DNA from: Bacteroidota bacterium
GTDB taxonomy: Bacteria; Bacteroidota; Ignavibacteria; UBA10030; SZUA-254
DNA: 64,000 nt
Assembly (NCBI GenBank): GCA_020056225.1
Contig: JAGVIE010000061.1
Location: 1 to 64,000 of the forward strand
Direction: 5' to 3'
A program made the translations under genes and the position numbers. Below, piece after piece: positions 364-28,747 of the stretch (its first letter is position 1; each line of letters begins with the position of its first letter). The notes under the pieces are model-generated. The model worked only from the letters and a program-made list of their open reading frames with translations, did not search any database and had not been told where the DNA came from.

Positions 364-1716
364 ATGCCTGAGTTTCGTATTGAGGGAATTTCACCAGCAG
401 GAAAAGCAGTACAGGGTGTGATCGAAGCTGAGAACGTCAGGGTCGCAAAACAAAAAGCAACACAGATGGCTACGCAGAGAAAGTTTAAGTTACTGCGTGT
501 CCTACGACGTGCAACATTTTTTTACAAAGTTCAGCGTGGTGGTGAAAAACCGATTACTGGCGAACAAAAAGCATTCACCAAAGAAGAAGTTCAGGAAGCT
601 CTCTCTAAGATGGGGTTCCGGGTAATTAATGTCCGCAAGAAGTCGCTTGACTTCAAGATGAAACCGCCCAACGCAGAAATTGTCACCTTTGTACGTGTGA
701 GTGCCGATTTGATCCGGCAGAAACTTCCGTACAATGAAATACTTCAGTTAATGGTAAACGACATCGAAAATAAAACGCTTCGTGATTCCATTAAGGAAAT
801 CAATAATGAATTGAAACAAGGGAAGGATAGTGAGAAAGTTTTTGTAAAGCAGGAGGCAGTTATCGGGCGATTTGCCTCCCACATGCTTGGTCTTGCGTCG
901 AAAAGCGGCAACATGGCTGAAATATACGATAGCACTGCAAAGTTTTTAGAGCGGCAAGCTGAGTTTCGGAAGAATCTTAAAAGCGCCCTGATTATGCCGA
1001 TAGTTACATTACTTGCTTTATTCGGCGCTTGCGTTTATTATATCGGATTTATTTTCCCTGGCATGGCGGAAGTATTTGTTCGACTAAAAGTCGATATGAA
1101 ACAATTTCCGATGACGTACGCGTCTTTGCAAATGAGTTATTTCCTTCAAGATAATTTCTTGCTCTTGTTGATATTAACATTGATTCCCGTTTTGATTGCT
1201 GTGCGGTTCTTCACTACCGAAAAAGGTAAATTTATAAGAGACAAATATATCTGGCGCATTCCGGTTGTTGGCTCATTATTACATAAAACAGCCATCGAAA
1301 TTTTTTGCCGTGTATTCTATGCTCTGTACAGTGGCGCCGGTGAAAATATCGATGTTATAAAAATGGCGGCTGAAGCTTGCGGGAATAAATACATGGAACA
1401 TCAGATAAAAACTATCGCCATCCCAATGATGGTAGAACGCGGCGCTGGAATTACCGAAGCATTTGAAGCAAGCGGGGTATTTACAAAGACTGCAATATCA
1501 CGTTTTCATTCAGGTGCTGAAACAGGAACAGTTAAACATACAGCACTCCAGCTTGCCGATTATTATGAAAAAGAAACAAATTACAAGATGCGTAACGCCA
1601 TCGATTTTATTCAATTGTGGGTAAACATGATAATCATGATCGTTTTAACGCTGTTGACATTGGTATCATCCGAAACAGCAACATTCCATCCGAGTACAGC
1701 GCCCGGCGGGCGTTAA
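364..1716 (+). CDS. GspF/PilC-type inner-membrane platform protein
   Basis: This is the polytopic inner-membrane platform of type II secretion and type IV pilus machines, which links the cytoplasmic ATPase to filament assembly. The 450-residue protein has a long cytoplasmic N-terminal part and two T2SSF-type domains. Three hydrophobic segments lie near residues 209-231, 262-283 and 417-438, the usual GspF layout, with the Gly-rich 'ASKSGNMAEI' and 'FHSGAETGT' stretches matching the conserved turns of the two domains. The N-terminal extension of about 110 residues is longer than in many family members. A GGAG site seven bases before the ATG supports the start. It is the first gene of an operon with the ATPase 39 bases downstream. 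Confidence 0.9.
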   Translation: MPEFRIEGISPAGKAVQGVIEAENVRVAKQKATQMATQRKFKLLRVLRRATFFYKVQRGGEKPITGEQKAFTKEEVQEALSKMGFRVINVRKKSLDFKMKPPNAEIVTFVRVSADLIRQKLPYNEILQLMVNDIENKTLRDSIKEINNELKQGKDSEKVFVKQEAVIGRFASHMLGLASKSGNMAEIYDSTAKFLERQAEFRKNLKSALIMPIVTLLALFGACVYYIGFIFPGMAEVFVRLKVDMKQFPMTYASLQMSYFLQDNFLLLLILTLIPVLIAVRFFTTEKGKFIRDKYIWRIPVVGSLLHKTAIEIFCRVFYALYSGAGENIDVIKMAAEACGNKYMEHQIKTIAIPMMVERGAGITEAFEASGVFTKTAISRFHSGAETGTVKHTALQLADYYEKETNYKMRNAIDFIQLWVNMIIMIVLTLLTLVSSETATFHPSTAPGGR

Positions 1717-28336: not shown

Positions 28337-28582
28337 CGAATTCTTGTATGTGGATATGATTCAAATCCACATGCTACTTATCTCTGAGTAGAATCAAAAA
28401 CATTCATTCCTTTTTTTGATTGCCTTAATAAACACGAGATAAAAATCGGTCATCAAATTTCACACGGCTTAGATTGAATTGCTGAAAACATGTTTAGATC
28501 AAAAGGCAAATTAAACGGTTCAATTTGTGTACGAAGGCGATAAGGTATGTATTGGTTTGACGAGTGATATGGATATTGAAAG

Positions 28583-28658
28583 AAAAAAAAGAGCATCGGC
28601 AGGTGGGCATTCCAACTTGGGAGGCGAAGTCAGAAACCGTGGATCCTACCGGATGCTC
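28583..28658 (-). ncRNA. small structured RNA, possibly 6S-Flavo-like
   Basis: On the minus strand a 76-base transcript is bounded by a near-perfect promoter and an eight-U tail. Its ends form a 13-bp stem: GAGCATC-C-GGTAGG with CCTGCCGATGCTC, one bulged C; one pair is G-U on this strand but would be a C-A mismatch on the other, which fixes the orientation. Inside, TTCTGACTT pairs with AAGTTGGAA (nine pairs, two G-U) around a C-rich loop CGCCTCCC, separated from the outer stem by an asymmetric internal bubble. The stem-bubble-stem shape fits an RNA-polymerase-binding 6S-type RNA, and the sequence reminds me of the Bacteroidota 6S-Flavo motif; that identity is from memory and unverified. The CCUCCC loop could alternatively pair with ribosome binding sites. 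The 60-codon ORF on the plus strand here (28527-28709) is a shadow. Confidence 0.78.
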
Positions 28659-28664
28659 GCTTGT

Positions 28665-28693
28665 ATTATACAATACAAAAACACAAAAGTCAA
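28665..28693 (-). promoter_or_regulatory. near-consensus promoter of the small RNA
   Basis: Read on the minus strand: TTGACT (28693 to 28688), exactly 17 bases, then a perfect TATAAT (28670 to 28665). The predicted start at 28658 is the first G of the RNA's terminal stem. It is the strongest promoter match in the window, implying a highly expressed RNA. Confidence 0.85.
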
Positions 28694-28718
28694 GAAAAAT
28701 TTTTCGTGAAAACTTGTT

Positions 28719-28747
28719 TTGACTTTAACGCAAAAATTTTCTAAATT
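28719..28747 (+). promoter_or_regulatory. promoter of the nuo operon
   Basis: TTGACT (28719-28724), 17 bases, TAAATT (28742-28747). It is divergent from the small-RNA promoter; the two -35 boxes face each other 25 bases apart as part of an inverted AAAGTCAA/TTGACTTT repeat. Predicted start is about 45 bases before nuoA. Confidence 0.7.

Follow-up and report, generated by a model that had tools for sequence, protein, structure and literature searches.

The minus strand of the 64,000-nucleotide stretch analysed here (the window: positions 1 to 64,000 of contig JAGVIE010000061.1, from a Bacteroidota bacterium of the Ignavibacteria lineage) almost certainly carries a conserved gene for a small structured RNA, upstream of and divergent from the nuo genes. 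The RNA is in none of Rfam's families and forms a new family with firm covariation. It is best explained as a small regulatory RNA, free-standing and inherited vertically within one family of the Ignavibacteria lineage. As its main mechanism we tentatively favour, at somewhat less than even confidence, pairing of its C-rich loop with Shine-Dalgarno (SD) sequences, a proposal drawn from sequence comparison. The parts of the locus, with the evidence for each, are as follows.

28583-28658, minus strand: small RNA gene, from the start of the terminal stem to the end of the U-run (direct reading, fold)
28688-28693, minus strand: -35 element TTGACT (TTGACT or TTGACA in 11 of 12 homologues)
28665-28670, minus strand: -10 element TATAAT (17-nt spacer to the -35 element, the same spacing in 11 of 12 homologues)
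28645-28658, minus strand: outer stem, 5' arm (changes on both sides at 9 of 13 pairs)
28591-28603, minus strand: outer stem, 3' arm, which is also the terminator stem (fold, covariation)
28639-28644, minus strand: internal loop, 5' side, AUCCAC, conserved form GANCCACGG (column identity, mean 0.917)
28604-28605, minus strand: internal loop, 3' side, CA; three bases in other copies (fold, alignment)
28606-28638, minus strand: inner hairpin, GGUUUCUGACUU-loop-AAGUUGGAAUGCC (mean stem identity 0.962; 99.2% of cells paired)
28619-28626, minus strand: apical loop CGCCUCCC, 8 nt (identical in 11 of 12 homologues; CUCCC in 12 of 12)
28583-28590, minus strand: terminator U-run, eight U (U-run in 12 of 12 homologues)
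28719-28747, plus strand: nuo promoter TTGACT-17-TAAATT, a divergent neighbour outside the RNA (similar promoter in all ten nuoA-linked copies, by eye)

Fold, strand and covariation

A first-pass annotation, made from the letters of the window alone, had described a small structured RNA here, and its account of the architecture agrees with ours. The promoter TTGACT-17-TATAAT is on the minus strand where it had been placed. The 13-bp outer stem consists of 7 and 6 pairs with one bulged C between them, the internal bubble is a 6 x 2 nt loop, and the nine-pair inner stem continues for 3 further pairs past a bulged U to the C-rich loop. The eight-U tail corresponds to eight T at 28590-28583. Six bases separate the -10 element from a paired rod of 68 nt, which runs from its first stem base, G 28658, to 28591 and is followed by the eight U (minus strand, 28583-28693 overall). 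Judging from the promoter position, transcription probably starts near the base of the stem.

The minus strand at 28575-28665 folds at -29.8 kcal/mol. The mean for 200 dinucleotide shuffles is -17.74 (standard deviation 2.71) and none is as low, giving a z score of -4.45; all 12 copies of the RNA found in this work have z scores of -3.7 to -6.5. The strand argument of the first-pass annotation, based on a G-U pair, extends to the whole family: 289 of 293 cells in the 12 homologues pair on the minus strand and 252 of 293 on the other. The strand is fixed because this gap is due to G-U pairs, which make up 38 of the 293 cells. Single-strand folding energies are weaker evidence of strand than G-U pairing: they favour the RNA strand in 11 of 12 copies, several of them narrowly, and favour the opposite strand in locus L006.

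Conservation of the fold in relatives was assessed on an alignment fitted to the covariance model (12 copies, 11 distinct rows, 269 cells), and covariation supports the structure. In all, 98.5% of the cells pair, and changes on both sides of a pair account for 27. They are concentrated where the table above places them, in the outer stem, where five pair types occur at a single position. None of 500 shuffles scored as high on any of five measures, and pairing fell to 37-46% when the structure was slid along the alignment. The inner stem is as consistently paired, with 7 of its 12 pairs invariant and the rest varying on one side only. Mean identity is lowest in the outer stem (0.79), rises through the two sides of the internal loop (0.917 and 0.884) and the inner stem, and peaks at 0.99 in the apical loop, where CUCCC persists even in L012, the divergent copy.

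The promoter is also retained. In every copy except L012, TTGACT or TTGACA stands 17 nt ahead of a hexamer resembling a -10 element, and a few bases lie between that hexamer and the RNA. A promoter of its own in 11 of 12 copies, a U-run in all 12 and a conserved fold with compensatory changes are what a trans-acting small RNA would have, and the homologues strongly support a structured RNA that is free-standing and encoded on the minus strand.

Two further features of the locus were noted. The -10 region (28661-28673) is palindromic, reading TTGTATTATACAA on the plus strand; by eye, palindromes made of other letters occur in L002, L006 and L007, so that several copies have one and others do not. 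It is possibly an operator and possibly a product of chance. A plus-strand frame of 60 amino acids at 28527-28709 is not considered to be coding, because the homologues carry single-base insertions and deletions inside it relative to one another.

Homologues and the neighbouring nuo genes

When 60 genomes, the source genome among them, were searched with the segment holding promoter and RNA, 12 matched strongly, and every one of these belongs to the window's own family (f1). The carriers are 12 of the 15 genomes of this family, and the three non-carriers form one genus, g4. A covariance model (R1) built from six copies recovered the same 12 among 98 genomes of the order, including the six it had not seen (G000, G001, G005, G007, G009 and G013). 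Its match at the locus covers 28588-28659 on the minus strand with 73.7 bits; the weakest carrier, G001, scored 32 bits (E 0.00122). Across 391 genomes of the class, a core-sequence pattern and a second model (R2) each matched 12 genomes, 11 of them family members (G009 is outside the 391). The remaining match was dismissed as a homologue in both cases: the pattern match in G113 lies inside an open reading frame and has no fold, and the R2 match in G295 (33.2 bits) is antisense inside a 364-amino-acid reading frame and has no U-run. In each genome these wide searches scored the 12 top candidates from a first look (49 in the 98-genome search), so weak distant relatives could escape them. The exact pattern had no match in viral contigs.

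The RNA usually adjoins nuo. Ten of the 12 copies lie upstream of nuoA, at a distance of 139-307 nt, and face away from the gene. Of the other two, L002 is on a contig that stops before nuo could appear, and L012 (genome G001) has a response-regulator-like gene on one side and tRNA-like sequences on the other, the latter recognised by eye and not with a tRNA finder. G001 has no close NuoA, its sole match being 41% identical, and genus g4 has nuo and no RNA. R1 run on 80 nuoA loci gave two matches, L031 and L032, which appear to be the same contigs as those of G010 and G013, so no new homologue was gained. Of the 80 loci, 33 were also scanned for a hairpin followed by T, and z scores below -5 came up at L031 and L032 only. 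In a tree of NuoA plus NuoB the RNA-less genus falls among the carriers (support 0.813), and there is a weak hint that g4 may have lost the RNA.

A second, more distant NuoA-like gene was observed in most family genomes (L151-L164; G000, G001 and others). It is mostly 41-52% identical, 70% in G005, and is the only one in G001. Compared by NuoA, the closest named records to the window are metagenome bins of Ignavibacteria and Chlorobiaceae.

Candidate mechanisms

Under SD pairing, the closed, paired ends would make the RNA stable. On target messages, the loop CGCCUCCC would begin to pair at ribosome-binding sites rich in G (GGGAGGCG, GGAGG, GGAG) and so block translation without Hfq. The first-pass annotation had raised this possibility for the CCUCCC loop. 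It is still plausible: the loop is the most conserved part of the RNA, and SD motifs are common, with GGAG, GAGG or AGGA ahead of 24 of the 42 genes in the window where 3.6 are expected. As to Hfq, PF17209 matched in none of the 15 family genomes and the control was positive in 5 of 14, which is not the setting of an Hfq-dependent small RNA.

Several results weigh against SD pairing. No convincing conserved target emerged from two target searches. Matches to the 13-mer loop complement with at most one mismatch numbered 56 outside the RNA in 15 genomes, versus 69 for the reversed pattern, and are thus not in excess. GGGAGG precedes none of the 42 window genes, and nuoA in the window has no SD at all. 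The motif GGGAGGYG-N1-10-ATG was sought in six genomes and sites from four (G000, G004, G007 and G010, not G002 or G006) were examined; only kinase genes recurred with the motif near a likely start. In one more related pair, L270 and L277, GGGAGGYG lies deep inside the reading frame. Finally, if the apical loop did all the pairing, there would be no need for the sequence conservation that the inner stem and internal loop also show. The conserved internal loop is the best ground for doubting SD pairing.

The kinase sites were rejected as targets: their GGGAGGCG falls among hairpins, next to an incomplete duplicate of the kinase start, and seems to belong to a repeated insertion. These Ser/Thr kinase-like genes (MIG..SHYKI.EKLGEGGMGVVY; L236, L243, L265 and L280) have just upstream of them a hairpin-rich stretch ending in GGGAGGCGTG. 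By eye, this stretch follows what seems to be an incomplete duplicate of the gene's own start, and the hairpin arms vary between copies yet seem to pair. The stretch resembles a small element that is repeated or mobile.

The main alternative to SD pairing, less likely but serious, is a protein-binding RNA. The conserved internal loop and inner hairpin would dock a protein that the RNA sequesters or guides, and the C-rich loop would be part of the docking site. This would account for an internal loop and inner stem kept in sequence beyond what pairing requires, and for inner pairs of which 7 of 12 are invariant and none is altered on both sides. An inner stem that varies little would also fit a hairpin that must open for its targets, however, and the protein has no known candidate.

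An improbable reading is that the RNA acts as a decoy for which the 3' tail of 16S rRNA is the model, its near-invariant CCUCC loop imitating the anti-Shine-Dalgarno sequence; such a decoy would tune across the genome how well SD-led messages compete against SD-less ones, in a lineage where SD-like motifs stand ahead of only about half of the genes. Slightly less probable again is a ligand-sensing or catalytic RNA with a small-molecule role: two conserved loops in one compact fold would suit it, but the RNA is free-standing, has no expression platform and resembles no Rfam family.

A cis element of nuo or a neighbouring gene (a leader, an attenuator or a DNA-level control site) is very unlikely despite the ten copies found upstream of nuoA. 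The RNA's promoter and U-run are directed away from nuo, a separate nuo promoter lies between the RNA and nuoA, and the gene next past the U-run in the window is convergent. Because the G001 copy adjoins tRNA and has no close NuoA in its genome, the RNA can exist without nuo and is not a nuo leader; g4, conversely, has nuo without the RNA. The adjacency reflects shared ancestry, and regulation of nuo by the RNA is unlikely. By eye, each of the ten copies linked to nuoA has this well-conserved nuo promoter, of TTGAC type, pointing the opposite way to the RNA promoter.

Least probable of all is a 6S-type RNA that imitates an open promoter and binds RNA polymerase, the other identity raised by the first-pass annotation. 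The paired ends, single internal loop, strong promoter and stable rod recall 6S (RF00013) and 6S-Flavo (RF01685). Their models span 187 and 108 positions, however, while the present RNA has 72-76 nt, a small internal loop of 6 x 2-3 nt, and its highest conservation in the apical hairpin. The suggested cmscan comparison, with 4227 Rfam families, gave no gathering-level match at the locus. A permissive scan (E<=10) gave five matches, all judged to be chance, the best being ctRNA_pGA1 with 17.4 bits against a cut-off of 45; neither 6S model was among them at the locus, and neither had a gathering match in the window. RF01685 matched in none of 21 genomes, which is weak by itself because the control genomes also gave none. 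RF00013 gave sub-threshold matches away from this RNA in G001, G007 and G019, two of which (L111 and L113, not L112) were found again by a direct scan of the loci. In L112 and L113, GGGAACTTGACTTGTG and ACCCACTGTGTAT blocks recur with similar spacing. Since G007 and G001 carry the small RNA as well as a separate 6S-like RNA, the two are distinct, and the 6S reading is not borne out.

The 6S-like RNA of the Ignavibacteria lineage scores below the RF00013 cut-off, has conserved GGGARCUUGACU and ACCCACUGUG blocks, and was placed at L111:1501-1728, L112 about 1501-1700 (minus strand), L113:1501-1664 and L285-L294. A strict pattern derived from the shared blocks matched 10 of the 98 order genomes, G001 and G007 included. 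Five of its matches are in the window's family, four of them in genomes without the small RNA or with a divergent copy; the overlap is attributed to the narrowness of the pattern, and a real link is conceivable. The window's own genome gave no 6S-like RNA by the general model or the strict pattern, the only two tried there.

Significance and comparison with known RNAs

The lineage gains an RNA family with firm covariation. Our search of open-licence papers on small or noncoding RNA, sRNA and transcriptomes in Ignavibacteria found no work; the closest survey of structured RNAs is PMC2864571. The near-invariant hairpin of the present RNA is a clear target for mutation. If the loop does act on SD sequences, riboregulation would here work without Hfq, in a group with SD motifs before only part of its genes, and the RNA would offer a natural test of the balance between SD-dependent and SD-independent translation.

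Three known RNAs are instructive for comparison besides 6S. The bacterial small signal recognition particle RNA (RF00169) is likewise a short, rod-like RNA, but it is a separate gene: its model has no match at the locus and finds the gene elsewhere in 12 of the 15 family genomes, including the window's own (contig C4). Chlorobi-1 RNA (RF01696), which consists of two stem-loops, is likewise a lineage-restricted candidate structured RNA from a related group; the small RNA matches neither it nor any other Rfam family. Chlorobi-1 is judged not to be cis-regulatory in Table 1 of PMC2864571. RoxS/RsaE of Bacillota is also a free-standing small RNA with a C-rich single-stranded stretch able to meet the SD. 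In the passages of PMC5419742 that treat them, pairing of the C-rich regions of RoxS with SD sequences is given as established and Hfq as generally dispensable for small RNAs in Gram-positives. The present RNA has no Rfam match and differs from RoxS/RsaE in holding one C-rich stretch within a closed 76-nt rod.
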